Shown here: positions 32,550 through 43,029 of the stretch, piece after piece | How the letters are laid out: every line of letters starts with the position of its first letter | Numbering within the stretch: position 1 is the stretch's first letter | Origin: Promethearchaeota archaeon | Lineage (GTDB): Archaea; Asgardarchaeota; Lokiarchaeia; Sigyniarchaeales; SOKP01 | NCBI GenBank assembly: GCA_011364975.1 | Contig: RDOE01000021.1 | Span: 1 to 43,029, forward strand | DNA: 43,029 nt | Reading direction: 5' to 3' | Notes under the pieces: model-generated | What the model was told of the DNA's origin: nothing | Databases searched by the model: none | What the model saw: the letters and a program-made list of their open reading frames with translations, nothing else | Program-made: the position numbers and the translations under genes

Positions 32550-32798
32550 TTATAACATATCTGATAAATCAAGATTTTGTTCTTCTGCTAGCTCTTTCCA
32601 TTGATCTATTGCTTCTAGAGCCTCCTTTTCGTTCATTTGCTCAATTGCATATCCCGCATGAACTATAACATAATTACCAACTTCAGGATTCAATAATAAA
32701 GCAACAATTACCTCTTGCTTTAATCCATCAAAATCGACTAAAGCAGTTTTTCTATCATTTTTAATTTCTAATATTTTCCCTGGTATTGCTAGACACAT
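32550..32798 (-). CDS. hypC: Hydrogenase assembly chaperone HypC/HupF
   Basis: 82 residues. The N-terminal MCLAIPGKI with the essential Cys2, and VIVHAGYAIEQM with the conserved His, are diagnostic. HypC shuttles Fe(CN)2CO from HypD to the hydrogenase large subunit. It is about 9 kb from the hypE-hypD pair and is transcribed alone; its partners HypD and HypE are at the right end of the window. Confidence 0.95.
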   Translation of the reverse strand: MCLAIPGKILEIKNDRKTALVDFDGLKQEVIVALLLNPEVGNYVIVHAGYAIEQMNEKEALEAIDQWKELAEEQNLDLSDML

Positions 32799-37121: not shown

Positions 37122-37979
37122 CTATAACTCTTTTTTCATGCGAGTTCTGTGAAATTTTAACCCGATCTCATCAGCAGATGTTCCCATAGCTAATGCTAAC
37201 AATTCTGTGATATATAAGACAGGAATTTCATAATCTTTTTCGTATTTTTTGGATAAATCCCTTTGTCTTGTATCGAATTGTTGAAAGCAGGCAGGACAGT
37301 TAACAACTAACACATCAGCACCTACTTTAGCAATGCTATCCATTTTGATTTTTAGGTTTGCCATACCATGCTCTTCATAAGCATTGGTAACTGCTGAGCC
37401 ACAGCATAAAACTTCCTCCTCATAATTAACTACAGTTGCACCAGTAGCAGCGACAATTTCCTTTAAGTTCTTTGGACGCATTACATCATCAGATTCCATC
37501 CATTCACCTGGGCGCATATAATGACATCCAGGATGGACCGCTACTTTTAGTCCACTTAGTGGTTTGGTAACTGATGCTTTAACCTTGTCCAAATTATCCT
37601 TTAATACATCTACAAAATGCTTTACATCAATTGAACCCTTGAATTCTTTACCAATTTTGGCTAATTCCTTGTTGATTCTATTCTTCTTAAGTGAATCATG
37701 TTTTAATTGATGCTGCACACCTCTAAGGGTGTTGGCACATCCGTTGCATAATGAGATAATATCTTTACCTTCTGCTTCTGCTAAACATAAATTGCGGGCA
37801 CCAATCGCTAACCAGGCTTCGTTATCGAAGCTTTTCATTCCCGTAGGGTCTGGACAACAACTAAATGGCGCTTGAGACGTTTCAATTCCAACCTTATCGA
37901 AAACTTTTCTTGAAGCAGCTTCTATAAACGGAATTCTGTTTCCAATAGTACATCCTTCAAACATTTTAAATTCTGTCAT
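37122..37979 (-). CDS. hdrB: Heterodisulfide reductase-like subunit B
   Basis: 285 residues with two CCG domains that bind the unusual noncubane [4Fe-4S] clusters. First domain: Cys10, Cys41-Cys42 (CCPDP), Cys78 and Cys81 (CNGC). Second: Cys152 (HPGC), Cys192-Cys193 (LCCGSA), Cys228 and Cys231 (CPAC). All ligands are present. HdrB receives electrons from HdrC and reduces a disulfide or equivalent acceptor; in an Asgard without methanogenesis the physiological disulfide is unknown. Last gene of the operon, 15 bases after hdrC. HdrA is not in the window. Confidence 0.95.
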   Translation of the reverse strand: MTEFKMFEGCTIGNRIPFIEAASRKVFDKVGIETSQAPFSCCPDPTGMKSFDNEAWLAIGARNLCLAEAEGKDIISLCNGCANTLRGVQHQLKHDSLKKNRINKELAKIGKEFKGSIDVKHFVDVLKDNLDKVKASVTKPLSGLKVAVHPGCHYMRPGEWMESDDVMRPKNLKEIVAATGATVVNYEEEVLCCGSAVTNAYEEHGMANLKIKMDSIAKVGADVLVVNCPACFQQFDTRQRDLSKKYEKDYEIPVLYITELLALAMGTSADEIGLKFHRTRMKKEL

Positions 37980-37994: not shown

Positions 37995-38501
37995 TTATTT
38001 TAGCTTTTTTTCAGCTCCAATATTTTTCATTAAGGTTTGCAATTCTCCAACATTAGGCTCTGCAACCGCAGGTAATCCTAATTGTTGTCGTCTTCGCTCA
38101 ATAGCAGGCTGTGAAGGAATCGCTTTAGAACTCTCGAAGATTGCTTTTGCTTGAGAATAAATAAATTCGGGCGCATTCCCTTGTTCCGCAGATTTATTCT
38201 TTAAAAATGTAAAAATCTCAGTCAACTCAATATGTTGAGGACATACTTCATCGCAGGTATCACATACAGTACAGCCCCAGATCGCCAATGGATCTTGAGA
38301 AAAGATCACATCTTTATACCCTAAAAGCGCAGCTAAGATATTCGCTCTTGGATCATAACCAGTTGTGGTATAAAAATCCTTGGATACAGCAGAAACTGGA
38401 CAATTATCTGTACATCTCGAACATTGATAGCAATATTTTATTAAATCAGAGCTCACATGCTTATCCATTACTTCCTTTCGGAATTCAAAATCAACCATCA
38501 T
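37995..38501 (-). CDS. hdrC: Heterodisulfide reductase-like subunit C
   Basis: 168 residues, two ferredoxin-like [4Fe-4S] sites: Cys24, 27, 30, 34 (CYQCSRCTDNCPVS) and Cys77, 80, 83, 87 (CTVCDTCDEVCPQH). It passes electrons from HdrA-bound flavin to HdrB. Starts with a double ATG at 38501, 106 bases after the vhuU stop, the largest intercistronic gap in this operon and the location of the candidate SECIS structure. hdrB follows after 15 bases. Confidence 0.95.
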   Translation of the reverse strand: MMVDFEFRKEVMDKHVSSDLIKYCYQCSRCTDNCPVSAVSKDFYTTTGYDPRANILAALLGYKDVIFSQDPLAIWGCTVCDTCDEVCPQHIELTEIFTFLKNKSAEQGNAPEFIYSQAKAIFESSKAIPSQPAIERRRQQLGLPAVAEPNVGELQTLMKNIGAEKKLK

Positions 38502-38550: not shown

Positions 38551-38622
38551 ATTGGCTTTAACCCGGGCATGGGCAGTTATATCCAATCTATTATTTTTAT
38601 TGGATATTCATCCTAAGCCAAC
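38551..38622 (-). ncRNA. Candidate SECIS element downstream of the Sec codon
   Basis: The minus-strand RNA folds into a nine-pair helix AUAUCCAAU (38607-38599) / AUUGGAUAU (38587-38579) closing an 11-base A-rich loop AAAAAUAAUAG. Directly before the helix is AUGA (38611-38608, overlapping the vhuU stop). An outer helix GUUGGCUU (38622-38615) / AAGCCAAU (38558-38551) pairs around it. AUGA plus an apical loop beginning AAA resembles the eukaryote-like SECIS reported in Lokiarchaeota. The matching 3' GA of the kink-turn is not evident. A competing fold AUUGG...CCAAU over the GC-rich UGCCCAUGCCCGGG is possible. Confidence 0.5.
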
Positions 38623-38772
38623 GTTCAACTTTCGAGAGTAAATCTCTTCACCGTTTTCTTTAACTACGGTTAAATGAGCCGCGCAGCTTAATCAACAATC
38701 AAAACAGCGCACGATCATTTCCAACAGATTTACTACTCCCTCAGGCACGTCTTCACTCATTTTAATATTCAC
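38608..38772 (-). CDS. vhuU: VhuU-type selenoprotein: separate C-terminus of NiFeSe hydrogenase
   Basis: 54 codons read through an in-frame TGA at 38692-38694 (residue 27). The product contains MIVRCFDC-Sec-LSCAAHL: the L2 nickel-binding motif of [NiFe] hydrogenases (D-P-C-x-x-C-x-x-H), with Sec27 replacing the first Cys, Cys30 the second, and His33 the maturation site. The preceding upstream gene mvhA lacks this motif. GTG start at 38772 is preceded five bases away by AAAGGAG; ATG 38760 is an alternative but too far from the SD. The 21 residues after His33 fit the peptide removed by hydrogenase maturation proteases. In methanococci VhuU is likewise a separate Sec peptide. Without UGA decoding this would be a 26-residue stub, so Sec is my reading. 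Normal ORF calling misses it. Confidence 0.88.
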
Positions 38773-38798: not shown

Positions 38799-40103
38799 TT
38801 ATTTAATCCAAGGTTCGGGTAGTTTTAAACCATCCAAGGCCTTGTCTTCAAATACCTGCTTAGCAACATGCATTAATGTTTTCTCGATCCCTGCAATATT
38901 ATGATTTGTCGCCACAAGAAGGTTAGCTTTCTTACATAGCCCATCAGCATCTGAAAAGATATGATACAAAAGAAGACCTCTCGGGGCTTCAACTACGCCC
39001 ACACCATCAGCTTCTCTGGGTTCAACATCTAAGGTCTTGCAATCAGGATTTACTATATCTGGATCTTGAAGCAATGTGGCAATCATTTCAATGGATTCGA
39101 CCAATTCAATTAAACGCGCCCAATGATAAGCAAAAGTGAAATGGGGAGTATTCCCAATTTTTGCTCTCATTGCTTTTAATGCCTCATCTGCTAAGGGAGT
39201 AGCCATCTTATCTGCAGCATTTATCATTGCTAAAGTATTTGCCCTATATATACCATCTGGATATCCTGCGGGTTTATAATACATGTGAGTTGCATAAGAA
39301 TGCTCCGGAATATGCTCTCCCAGTGCTTCCAAATATTTTTGAGGAGGATAATCAAATTTCTGACCATCAGGACTTACAATTCGAATATCTCCTTCGTAAA
39401 TATCATGAACACCGTTTTTTGTCATACCAGCATAGTAAGTTGGCACTACACCAACATTAGCTACGACATCCCAATAATCCTCGACAACCTTTAAGCCAAT
39501 ATCAACTGTCTTTTTTGACCACTCAACTTGGTCCTCAATCTGCTTTAAGAATTTATCCCGAGCGGTTTCATCCATCGCCTTTTTCATCCCACCAACGATT
39601 GCACTTATGGGATGGACAGATTTACCACCGATCTCGGCACATAACTTCTGCCCGAAGTCCATCATCTTTAAAGCCATAGCCCCTACATCAGGCATCTTGC
39701 TAATGACATGAACAACATTCCTTAACGCGGGGTCTGCAAAAGGTCCTAATAGAAAATCTGGTGCAGCTAATGCATAAAAATGTAATGCATGAGAACTGTA
39801 TTGTTTTGCATTCATGAGCAATTGTCTTAATTTATATGCAGGTTCGGGAATTTGAACACCCCATGCATCTTCTACTGCTTTAGTTGGAGCTATATGATGA
39901 GGTATTGGACAGATTCCACAGATTCTAGGAGTAATCCTTGGGATGTGTTCACAATATCGACCCTCAAGAAACTTTTCAAAGAATCTTGTGGATGTGATAT
40001 TGAACTGCACATCCTTAACTTTGCCATCATCGCTTAGGACTAATCTTAAACCACCATGTCCCTCTAATCGAGTGACTGGTTCTACTTCTATCACTTTATC
40101 CAT
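38799..40103 (-). CDS. mvhA: F420-non-reducing hydrogenase large subunit (Vhu/Mvh A), lacks C-terminal CxxC
   Basis: 434 residues. L1 motif PRICGICPIPHHI with Cys62 and Cys65 binds the Ni-Fe centre from the N-terminal side; RLEGHGG and the long helical body are standard. The protein ends FEDKALDGLKLPEPWIK at a TAA stop, without the required DPCxxCxxH. That motif is supplied by vhuU, 26 bases downstream, so the active site is built from two polypeptides. The subunit works with MvhG and, with Hdr, oxidises H2 to feed ferredoxin and disulfide reduction. Start ATG at 40103, 11 bases after mvhG. Confidence 0.95.
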   Translation of the reverse strand: MDKVIEVEPVTRLEGHGGLRLVLSDDGKVKDVQFNITSTRFFEKFLEGRYCEHIPRITPRICGICPIPHHIAPTKAVEDAWGVQIPEPAYKLRQLLMNAKQYSSHALHFYALAAPDFLLGPFADPALRNVVHVISKMPDVGAMALKMMDFGQKLCAEIGGKSVHPISAIVGGMKKAMDETARDKFLKQIEDQVEWSKKTVDIGLKVVEDYWDVVANVGVVPTYYAGMTKNGVHDIYEGDIRIVSPDGQKFDYPPQKYLEALGEHIPEHSYATHMYYKPAGYPDGIYRANTLAMINAADKMATPLADEALKAMRAKIGNTPHFTFAYHWARLIELVESIEMIATLLQDPDIVNPDCKTLDVEPREADGVGVVEAPRGLLLYHIFSDADGLCKKANLLVATNHNIAGIEKTLMHVAKQVFEDKALDGLKLPEPWIK

Positions 40104-40114
40104 TCTTTTATCAC

Positions 40115-41431
40115 CTATCTATAATTTTTATTTGCAGCTAATGTGAACTTCTCACTAAAGCCGATCTTGTCTTTGATTTGACTTAAGAGATCTTCTTTGC
40201 TTAAAGCTACATTAAATTGTTTCGTTGCTATATCAGCAAATCGTTCGGCTTGATTAACGTTCCACTCTGTTTGACCGAAGCAACCAGAGCAGGGGGCGTT
40301 AACCCGTATACACATACCACCACAGCCAGCTCTTGTAATAGGTCCTGCACATAGATATCCTTGTTCAATAAAACAGTCCTCCATATTTGGAAGGCCTTCA
40401 TAATCACGTTTAACACGAGTCATTTGAGATTTGCTTCCAATAATTCGGGGACATGTATCACAAACATTTGATATCTCAGTGAACTCTCTATGATCTCGTA
40501 AGTATGCCATTACTTTAGAGGCTATCTCTGCAGTATCACTTGGAATATTTGCTAATGAAGTTGAAGCTTTTCCATGAATTTTAATTTGTTTTAAGATGTC
40601 TGCGGATAAGTCAAATCCTGCCATTAAGGGAACGTTTAGGAAAAGAGGTAAAAATTCATATACACTTTTTTTATTTCCTGAACTTAATCCCCCAATATTT
40701 CCAACCATTTCTTTCAATTTTGCGGTTCGAGAAGATACGGTTTTTGCAGGTCCTAAGCATCCTACACAAGGTTTACCATTATTAGTACATTTTAATTCAC
40801 AACCAGTACTAGTAATAGGACCGAAACAGAGAACACCTTTCTCCAATAAACAATTTTCATTATTTAAAGAGCAATTATTACAAAATGCCGAATCTGCCAT
40901 AGGTTGTGGCTTTTGACCTAGCAAAAATGCAACAGCACTAATAATGGCTTCAGGTTTTGGAGGACATCCGCTTATATATGCATCAATTGAAATTACTTCG
41001 TCTGTAGGAACTATTTTTGAAGCAAAACCGGGCATATGTTCTTTAGGTTCATGTGGACTTTCATTAGTTATGGATTCCGCTTGTTCGAATTTGCGCTTAA
41101 CAGAATCTTGAATATCCCACACATTAGCTAACCCATGAACATTTCCGTAGCAAGAGCAAGAGCCGAAAGCAATTATTAATTGGCATTTTGCTCGCATTAG
41201 TTTTACATTTTCTACATCTTCGTTAGTTCGTAATGAACCCTCCACGAATCCGACAAGAATATCACCATCGGGTCTAGCTTTCAAAGAGTCATGTTTAAAG
41301 TCAACAACAGCTGGCCAATATACAATATCGAGTGCTGGGAGAATTGGCAACAATCCTAAATGTGCATTTAATAAGGATTGATGACAACCCCAACAATCTG
41401 ATCCTTGCATAAAAGCTACTTTTACTGCCAT
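40115..41431 (-). CDS. mvhG: F420-non-reducing hydrogenase small subunit (Mvh/Vhu G) with duplicated Cys module
   Basis: 438 residues, versus about 310 typical. N-terminal flavodoxin-like half with QGSDCWGCHQSL (Cys13, Cys16), GSCSCYGN and SGCPPKP supplies the proximal cluster. The Fe-S region is present twice: Cys184, 187, 194, 202, 211, 215, 222, 225 and again Cys324, 327, 353, 361, 370, 374, 381, 384. From the third Cys the spacings (8, 9, 4, 7, 3) are identical, offset 159 residues, with LCFGPITSTGC against LCAGPITRAGC. Either half could hold the medial and distal clusters; both have all ligands. First gene of the operon, start ATG 41431. Confidence 0.93.
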   Translation of the reverse strand: MAVKVAFMQGSDCWGCHQSLLNAHLGLLPILPALDIVYWPAVVDFKHDSLKARPDGDILVGFVEGSLRTNEDVENVKLMRAKCQLIIAFGSCSCYGNVHGLANVWDIQDSVKRKFEQAESITNESPHEPKEHMPGFASKIVPTDEVISIDAYISGCPPKPEAIISAVAFLLGQKPQPMADSAFCNNCSLNNENCLLEKGVLCFGPITSTGCELKCTNNGKPCVGCLGPAKTVSSRTAKLKEMVGNIGGLSSGNKKSVYEFLPLFLNVPLMAGFDLSADILKQIKIHGKASTSLANIPSDTAEIASKVMAYLRDHREFTEISNVCDTCPRIIGSKSQMTRVKRDYEGLPNMEDCFIEQGYLCAGPITRAGCGGMCIRVNAPCSGCFGQTEWNVNQAERFADIATKQFNVALSKEDLLSQIKDKIGFSEKFTLAANKNYR

Positions 41432-41655: not shown

Positions 41656-42708
41656 ATGAGTATGAAAAAAGTGAGTTCGAGCGTTATTCGGTTAGCTCAT
41701 GGTGCGGGTGGTGTGTTACAAGAAGAATTAATTAATTTCATTACACGCAATATCACTTATAAGAGAGTGAATAAAGGAATTGGAGTAGAAGAATTGGATG
41801 ATGGCGCTACTATTCCTTTAGAAGATTATGATCAAGAAATTGTGGTTACGGCAGATGGTCATACAGTATATCCTATCTTTTTTCCTGGAGGTAATTTAGG
41901 GATTTTAAGTGTATGTGGTACGGTTAATGATTTAATCATGATGGGAGCCCAACCTTTAGCAATTACTTCTATCATAATCATTGAAGAGGGCTTTTCATTT
42001 GATTCTTTAGAAAAAATCGTGAATTCATTTAATTTCAAGGCTAAGGAAGCAAATATTGCTATAATTGCAGGAGATACTAAAATAATGCCAAGAGGAACAT
42101 TAAATGAAATAATCATGGCTACAACGGGGATCGGATTAAAAGATAAAAATATAAAAGTATTAGATAGCAATTGTCAAGTTGGAGATAAAATTATTATCAC
42201 GGGGAGTATCGCCGATCATGGTACTGCATTGATAGGTAGCCGTGAAGGCTTAAATATTGCGTCCGATCTAACCTCAGATGTAAACCTATTAACGGATATT
42301 TACGAAGTGTTAAAGCCAGAATTAGCAGAAAACATTATTCATGCGATGAAAGATCCTACACGAGGTGGAATTGCTGGAGCGTTAAATAATTGGGCAAGTA
42401 AATCGAATGTAAGTATTCAATTAATCGAAGAATCAATTCCAATTAAAAGGCAAGTTAGTGCTATTTGTGAAATGCTCGGTCTTGATCCATTTATGATTGC
42501 ATCAGAAGGAAGAGCTTTAATATCAGTAAATCCAAAGAATGTAAATGATATTTTAGAGAAAATACGCTCTACCAAAATGGGTAGAGATGCAGAAATCATT
42601 GGAGAAGTAAAAAAAGATAATCCTAAAAAGGTATTTTTGAAAACACTTGTTGGAGGAACTCGCTTTGTGGACATGCCCTTAGGAGAGCCTATCCCTAGAA
42701 TTTGTTAA
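41656..42708 (+). CDS. hypE: Hydrogenase expression/formation protein HypE
   Basis: 350 residues of the AIR-synthase (PurM) fold. VIRLAHGAGGVLQEELI opening, VTADGHTVYPIFFPGG, VCGTVNDLIMMGAQP, IAGDTKIMPRG, KDPTRGGIAGALNNWA and the C-terminal PIPRIC ending with the Cys that carries the thiocyanate group made from HypF-carbamoyl by ATP. HypE supplies the cyanide ligands to the HypC-HypD scaffold. Divergent from the hydrogenase operon, and followed by hypD after 60 bases on the same strand. Confidence 0.95.
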   Translation: MSMKKVSSSVIRLAHGAGGVLQEELINFITRNITYKRVNKGIGVEELDDGATIPLEDYDQEIVVTADGHTVYPIFFPGGNLGILSVCGTVNDLIMMGAQPLAITSIIIIEEGFSFDSLEKIVNSFNFKAKEANIAIIAGDTKIMPRGTLNEIIMATTGIGLKDKNIKVLDSNCQVGDKIIITGSIADHGTALIGSREGLNIASDLTSDVNLLTDIYEVLKPELAENIIHAMKDPTRGGIAGALNNWASKSNVSIQLIEESIPIKRQVSAICEMLGLDPFMIASEGRALISVNPKNVNDILEKIRSTKMGRDAEIIGEVKKDNPKKVFLKTLVGGTRFVDMPLGEPIPRIC

Positions 42709-42768: not shown

Positions 42769-43029
42769 ATGGAAATTCTTGGAACTAAATACTTACGAAA
42801 TAAGGATTTCACAAATAAAGTAATAAAAGCTATAACTAAACTAACCCGTGAAATTAACAGAAAAATTAAATTGATGCATGTATGTGGTACTCATGAACAT
42901 ACTATATCCAAATATGGATTAAGGAGTTTATTACCAAAAGAGATCGAAATACTATCTGGTCCAGGTTGTCCTGTATGCGTATGCCCTGCTGCGGATATTG
43001 ATAAAGCAATAGAGCTAGGAAAGAGAAAG
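42769..43029 (+). CDS. hypD: Hydrogenase formation protein HypD, N-terminal part
   Basis: The first 87 residues, running off the right edge in frame. Contains HVCGTHEHTISKYGLRSLLP and LSGPGCPVCVCPA with the conserved cysteines (CGTH, GPGCPVC) that bind iron and handle ligand transfer with HypC. Start ATG at 42769 after CATGGAA context; 60 bases after hypE, so the two are probably co-transcribed. Full length elsewhere about 350 residues. Confidence 0.95.
   Translation, partial: MEILGTKYLRNKDFTNKVIKAITKLTREINRKIKLMHVCGTHEHTISKYGLRSLLPKEIEILSGPGCPVCVCPAADIDKAIELGKRK

Follow-up and report, generated by a model that had tools for sequence, protein, structure and literature searches.

Asgard archaea reportedly contain selenoproteins with eSECIS-like elements, described by Mariotti in 2016. 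FrhA/MvhA/VhuU selenoproteins occur in 68.3% of Sec-using Asgard archaea according to the accessible text of PMC11227280, and VhuU proteins of about 50 aa are held by the Asgard genomes in the accessible part of PMC11291895. Asgard VhuU selenoproteins are already published, and the vhuU gene described here adds a member to this family. In the text available, PMC11227280 describes an AUGA_[G/A]A type of element and gives as type I criteria a GA_[G/A]A core, an upper stem of 7-15 bp and an apical loop of 8-20 nt; it also reports, citing Mariotti 2016, a stop codon that overlaps the AUGA, and states that SBP2 was not found in Asgard genomes. No archaeal SECIS-binding protein is known in the accessible portions of the literature cited, and one lokiarchaeal SECIS was not functional in Methanococcus maripaludis (PMC11881835, accessible part).

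The stretch of DNA analysed here (the window, 43,029 nt from a Promethearchaeota archaeon) contains vhuU, an easily missed tiny gene for a free-standing C-terminal piece of a predicted [NiFe] hydrogenase large subunit (Table 1). Read from 38772 to 38608, the minus strand gives VNIKMSEDVPEGVVNLLEMIVRCFDC-TGA-LSCAAHLTVVKENGEEIYSRKLNVGLG-TGA, confirming the frame with an internal TGA that the initial annotation had proposed. The frame holds two UGA codons, one in-frame (38692-38694) and one terminal (38608-38610); counted from the ATG start, the landmarks are Cys 22, TGA at codon 23, Cys 26 and His 29. The UGA at 38692-38694 is very probably read as Sec at the first C-terminal nickel ligand, directed by a SECIS element. 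This best explanation is based on the conserved TGA, the conserved reading, the machinery genes and the covariation.

Table 1. Features of the vhuU locus and Sec machinery of the source genome
Feature	Position	Strand	Remarks
vhuG, small subunit	40115..41431	-	NCBIfam VhuG 222.9 bits, cut-off 450
vhuA	38799..40103	-	N-terminal nickel ligands RICGIC, without C-terminal motif; NCBIfam VhuA 468.6 bits, cut-off 800
GTGA, probable Shine-Dalgarno-type element	38769..38772	-	8 nt 5' of ATG
vhuU	38608..38760	-	50 codons from ATG (38758-38760) plus TGA stop (38608-38610)
TGT, Cys 22	38695..38697	-	Replaces Pro of canonical D-P-C; Cys-Sec pair
In-frame TGA, codon 23	38692..38694	-	Predicted Sec, first C-terminal nickel ligand; conserved in relatives
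SECIS (predicted), whole	38551..38622	-	MFE fold z -2.8; covariation
P1	5' strand 38615-38622 (coding); 3' strand 38551-38558 (3' UTR)	-	
AUGA kink-turn core	38608..38611	-	UGA is the vhuU stop; partner AA 38577-38578, AUGA_AA type
P2, upper stem	38579..38607	-	ATATCCAAT/ATTGGATAT, 9 bp, apical loop AAAAATAATAG
P3, side hairpin, third junction arm	38561..38574	-	GCCC-ATGCCC-GGGT
hdrC-like	37995..38501	-	TIGR03290 78.5 bits, cut-off 160
hdrB-like	37122..37979	-	TIGR03288 270.3 bits, cut-off 345.15
hypC	32550..32798	-	TIGR00074 85 bits, cut-off 48
hypE	41656..42708	+	TIGR02124 368.9 bits, cut-off 251.6
hypD, cut by window end	42769..43029	+	TIGR00075 100.5 bits, whole-protein cut-off 192.8
tRNA-Sec			40.3 bits, below Rfam cut-off 47; anticodon loop CUUCAAA
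SepSecS			367.6 bits, over cut-off
PSTK			166.3 bits, below NCBIfam cut-off 290.5; best PDB matches L-seryl-tRNA(Sec) kinase
EFSec			234.5 bits, just below cut-off 242.25; best PDB match SelB/MJ0495-like 4ac9, 1.3e-87
SelD			Over cut-off; Sec-type, own in-frame TGA in HGUSC

The row order is vhuG-vhuA-vhuU-hdrC-hdrB, with vhuU sitting between vhuA and hdrC. The large subunit encoded upstream had been said to lack the nickel motif, and this holds: VhuA ends in ...KLPEPWIK, contains no D-x-C-x-x-C-x-x-H, and its sole C-x-x-C is at residues 62-65. Its best PDB match is 9sfi_g (1.1e-124), and hhalign of VhuU against VhuA gave no overlap, as expected for adjacent pieces. At 438 aa, VhuG extends past the 286-position VhuG model by a Cys-rich second half. 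In the Loki set, i.e. the window plus 54 loci encoding relatives (all record titles Lokiarchaeota or Lokiarchaeia), vhuU is preceded by a vhuA on its own strand in 48 of 49 testable loci, at a distance of at most 110 nt in 40. No hdrC match follows vhuU in 11 of 53 testable Loki loci (L020, L023, L025, L026, L028, L030, L033, L036, L051, L056 and L057); eight of these have hdrC and/or hdrB between vhuA and vhuU, L025 has hdrC/hdrB upstream of vhuU and no vhuA match, and in L056 and L057 hdrC/hdrB are located upstream of vhuA.

A ribosome binding site before a GTG start had been proposed for the gene. AGGAG is indeed present 5 bases 5' of this GTG, but the comparison of relatives makes the ATG at 38760 the more likely start. 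In 43 of the 54 loci that could be compared (the window among them, L004 excluded), GTGA occurs no more than 22 nt from the aligned ATG, at 5-10 nt in 42 of those 43, so the GTG appears to belong to a Shine-Dalgarno-type element. An in-frame upstream GTG or TTG within 7 codons and without an intervening stop is found in only 16 of the 54.

The best NCBIfam family of the vhuU peptide is VhuU (NF041786; 5.4e-13), with a score of 48.5 bits that does not reach the curated cut-off of 70; the protein is therefore filed as a variant relative and not as the methanogen equivalog. The relative L056, which reads D-P-U, also scores below this cut-off (58.0 bits). The gene has the features of VhuU, namely a short free ORF with x-C/U-x-x-C-x-x-H, a partner without the motif and a conserved UGA at the ligand. 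It resembles methanogen VhuU (NF041786; 9sfi_M) in being a free short peptide whose first C-terminal nickel ligand is Sec/X and which has a VhuA partner: a nonstandard residue X of the 27-residue PDB chain 9sfi_M, which ends one residue past the His, is aligned to the vhuU TGA, and the large-subunit partner in the solved complex (9sfi/9t1s) is the best PDB match of VhuA. It differs from methanogen VhuU not only in score but also in reading D-C-U where 9sfi_M has D-P-X, and in its predicted SECIS, which is of a eukaryote-like kink-turn type, whereas methanogen elements are of the GAA_A type in the accessible text of PMC11881835 and PMC9622424. The methanogen eaSECIS feature, a GAA_A bulge followed by G-C pairs, was not found in the window, where no GAA precedes P3. 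The C-terminus is homologous to that of MvhA (PDB 5odc, residues 418-455) and of the only other large subunit found in the source genome (on contig C180), but both of these are fused and carry Cys instead of Sec, and the C180 subunit reads DPC, with Pro before the ligand.

Comparison of the ligand codon in relatives, where TGC would have been the alternative to TGA, returned TGA in all 54, such that codon 23 is TGA in 55/55 Loki sequences. A chance TGA had been judged very unlikely, in agreement with a probability of only ~0.0175 for TGA at a random minus-strand codon of the window's composition, yet all 55 sequences have it. A scan of the phylum produced matches in 200 of 227 genomes. From the matches listed, a selection of 64 short-frame peptides, mostly outside the window's own family, makes up a further set with 61 TGA and 3 TGT; 16 large subunits make up a Cys-type set with 13 TGT and 3 TGC at the ligand codon, 15 of them in frames of 434-519 aa and one, L131, truncated by a contig end. 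The loci L104, L105 and L106 encode Cys-type free VhuU peptides reading DCC...F, with the His replaced by Phe, and their genomes also have Sec-type copies. In the vhuU of L038, the sixth codon past the motif is a TAA in frame, reflecting either a sequencing error or a decayed copy.

The MFE fold of 38622-38547 contains P1, P2 and P3 (z -2.8), and the predicted SECIS shows the Asgard eSECIS-like combination of AUGA_AA, a 9 bp upper stem and an 11 nt apical loop. With the Asgard FrhA/VhuU elements in the accessible text of PMC11227280 it shares the gene family, the AUGA_[G/A]A core, an A-rich apical loop and the stop UGA overlapping the AUGA; it differs from the models published there, which have two stems and for which this text makes no mention of a P3 arm or of a Cys before Sec. 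An AUGA core at the base of the upper stem and unpaired A's in the apical loop are also found in eukaryotic SECIS elements (PMC11227280, same text), from which the vhuU element is distinguished by P3 and by its overlap with the coding end. An Rfam scan of the element matched no SECIS family and three C/D-box snoRNA families below their cut-offs.

In a MAFFT alignment of the 55 Loki element sequences, of which 52 are distinct, 12 of the 21 pairs are changed on both sides, with a covariation of 0.265 compared with 0.138 for shuffled and at most 0.090 for slid alignments. Both-side changes affect all nine pairs of P2, and in P1 GTTGGC/GCCAAC becomes GTAGGC/GCCTAC in several relatives, i.e. the C-terminal codons pair with the 3' UTR. 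A covariance model matched 50 of the 64 further loci at E <= 1, comprising 50/61 Sec-type (11 missed) and 0/3 Cys-type loci (one cut by a contig end). Covariation in the fitted alignment of these matches is 0.599 (0.205 shuffled, at most 0.157 slid), and in an unfitted alignment of 35 of the matched other Asgard loci it is 0.362 (0.240 shuffled, at most 0.120 slid).

As modelled, the SECIS probably forms a three-way junction, in which P3 is an extra side hairpin. A plain two-stem, eukaryote-like hairpin, in which P3 would be a chance GC-rich hairpin within the internal loop, is rather unlikely, albeit in line with the two stems of the published models (PMC11227280, accessible text) and with the single apical loop stated for Lokiarchaeota SECIS in the accessible part of the review PMC9499178. 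P3 pairs in 88.9% of cells in the Loki set with zero both-side changes, and for the 35-locus set RNAalifold chooses a different fold without P1 and P3, at a slightly higher mean score (0.385). Against the two-stem hairpin, P3 is paired in 98.1% of cells in the same 35 loci and shows 15 both-side-change cells, although this alignment was not fitted to it, and the nine non-P2 pairs of the RNAalifold fold contain a single both-side-change cell versus 30 for P1 and P3. Of the 11 FlpD matches in the source genome, three FlpD/VhuD genes (L191, L192, L193) have 2 TGA each; the MFE folds of these three Sec-type vhuD genes have all three arms (z -1.7, -3.2 and -2.5) and form P3 with other letters (CCT/AGG, ATGG/CCAT and ACCAT/ATGGT), whereas their P3 loops, like that of vhuU, all contain TGC. 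The SECIS model matched two of the three vhuD elements and missed L192, although its MFE fold is three-armed.

A three-arm structure is not claimed for selD, as its MFE fold has a 3' P3-like hairpin but neither P1 nor P2, and the model gave no match. Two further model matches have no clear selenoprotein ORF: L072 (G000:C173:2685-2768; 35.5 bits) folds into P1, P2 and P3 with z -2.6, and L073 (G000:C154:20432-20507; 33.9 bits) folds no better than shuffled sequences (z -0.3). They possibly represent an unknown short selenoprotein or a remnant. A full-text search combining selenocysteine insertion sequence, three-way junction and archaea found these words only in a reference title, and in the literature accessible here we did not see a three-armed SECIS described.

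The stop codon of vhuU lies inside the predicted SECIS core. Among the 50 model matches outside the Loki set, all 44 UGA terminators are positioned within the core and all six UAA terminators upstream of it, a count that leaves out the 11 Sec-type loci missed by the model, nine of which end in UGA. The terminator is a TGA at the aligned core in 52 of the 55 Loki sequences (47 AUGA, 4 UUGA, 1 CUGA). L050 and L054 terminate at TAG and retain GGATGA out of frame, which indicates that it is the RNA that requires the AUGA; the remaining locus is L038 with its internal TAA. Of the 33 clear window genes counted, just 3 end in UGA. Avoidance of UGA terminators when the SECIS is located further downstream was considered and dropped, since zero UGA in six is unremarkable at this frequency. 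The pattern seen in the model matches, with all UGA stops within the core, was likewise not seen described in the literature accessible here.

The source genome is a draft (99.25% complete, 6.09% estimated contamination) and carries its Sec genes on contigs other than that of the window. Absence of the Sec-insertion genes had been named as an observation that would argue against Sec, and tRNA-Sec, SepSecS, PSTK, EFSec and SelD are all in the genome. Some of the scores are below cut-off; nevertheless, the tRNA-Sec alignment and the best PDB matches of PSTK and EFSec name the right family. In a Sec locus (L068, G000:C106:31000-42000), a span of ~7 kb encodes tRNA-Sec, SepSecS and EFSec.

At the sequence level, the selenocysteine reading of the vhuU TGA is strongly supported. 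It is extremely improbable that the TGA is a true stop, leaving vhuU broken and the downstream reading a remnant, as might be argued from the TGA itself and from the additional in-frame TAA of L038. The codon is TGA in 55/55, and the pN/pS speaks strongly against a true stop: it is 0.189 for the 20 codons preceding the TGA and 0.166 for the 18 that follow, whereas both wrong frames exceed 1.3. Thus, purifying selection acts alike on both sides, and the plain stop without conserved downstream reading, on which the initial annotation had made its proposal depend, is not what is found; the Sec machinery genes and the SECIS covariation point the same way. Decoding of the UGA as Cys or Trp through a code change or a suppressor tRNA is almost certainly wrong despite the Cys of fused homologues at this position, as UGA terminates 3/33 clear window genes counted and is therefore no general sense codon, the genome encodes a tRNA-Sec with a UCA anticodon together with the Sec pathway, and the SECIS model separates Sec-type (50/61) from Cys-type loci (0/3, one cut by a contig end).

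The TGA had been assigned to the first Cys of a D-P-C-x-x-C-x-x-H motif. Its place at this nickel ligand stands, but the preceding residue is Cys (TGT) and not Pro; the initial annotation recognized the Sec codon and missed both the SECIS and this Cys-Sec pair. Cys precedes the ligand in 53 and Pro in 2 of the 55 Loki sequences, so Pro was not treated as defining VhuU. Among the matches listed, the other Sec-type peptides have Cys in 59/61 (Asn and Phe once each), the three Cys-type free peptides also have Cys before the ligand and Phe for His, and the Asgard Cys-type large subunits have Pro in 16/16. Overall, Cys precedes Sec in 112 of the 116 Sec-type Asgard peptides examined (those other than Loki being among the matches listed). 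A vicinal Cys-Sec pair occurs in mammalian thioredoxin reductase. A literature search on selenenylsulfides in NiFeSe hydrogenases retrieved no papers, and in the literature accessible here we did not see a nickel site with a Cys-Sec pair described. As a guess, Cys 22 might protect Sec through a selenenylsulfide.

In the SECIS-directed selenocysteine reading, EFSec would bring Sec-tRNA(UCA) to the vhuU UGA under the direction of the SECIS RNA, which is predicted to begin 69 nt downstream of this UGA in the last vhuU codons and to end in the 3' UTR. The element would form a three-way junction, with P1 joining coding sequence and 3' UTR, P2 as a eukaryote-SECIS-like arm with putative kink-turn geometry (AUGA_AA, AAAAA loop) and P3 as the side hairpin. 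By the time a ribosome arrived at the stop UGA it would have melted the SECIS, so that termination would follow. The selenium-containing peptide would then join VhuA, placing Sec23 and Cys26 beside VhuA Cys62 and Cys65. The tail is 21 residues long in 52/55 Loki peptides and, among the matches listed, in 58/64 other peptides, and a HycI-type protease gene is present in the source genome; judging from the sequences, loss of this tail to a protease is plausible, and the maturation protease would cut after His29 or one residue later. The mature site would turn over H2, presumably coupled to HdrBC.

A broader proposal, which we regard as quite unlikely in its entirety, is that the three-armed kink-turn SECIS is the ancestral archaeal form, of which eukaryotes kept P1 and P2 and methanogens P1 and P3, that the stop UGA lies in the core so that the ribosome switches the element off, and that the Cys-Sec pair could form a protective selenenylsulfide. 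If true, the retention of P1 and P2 in eukaryotes and of P1 with a short G-C hairpin (P3) in methanogens would explain why their SECIS elements look unrelated.

The variant features, i.e. the third arm, the stop in the core and the Cys-Sec pair, matter more than the vhuU gene itself. A Cys beside Sec at the nickel site would, as far as found, be a new hydrogenase ligand environment, and the UGA terminators that coincide with the SECIS core suggest how UGA can mean Sec at one place in an mRNA and stop at another. The conserved third arm would offer a concrete site at which to test for an archaeal SECIS-binding factor, as well as a structural basis for comparing eukaryotic and methanogen SECIS elements.
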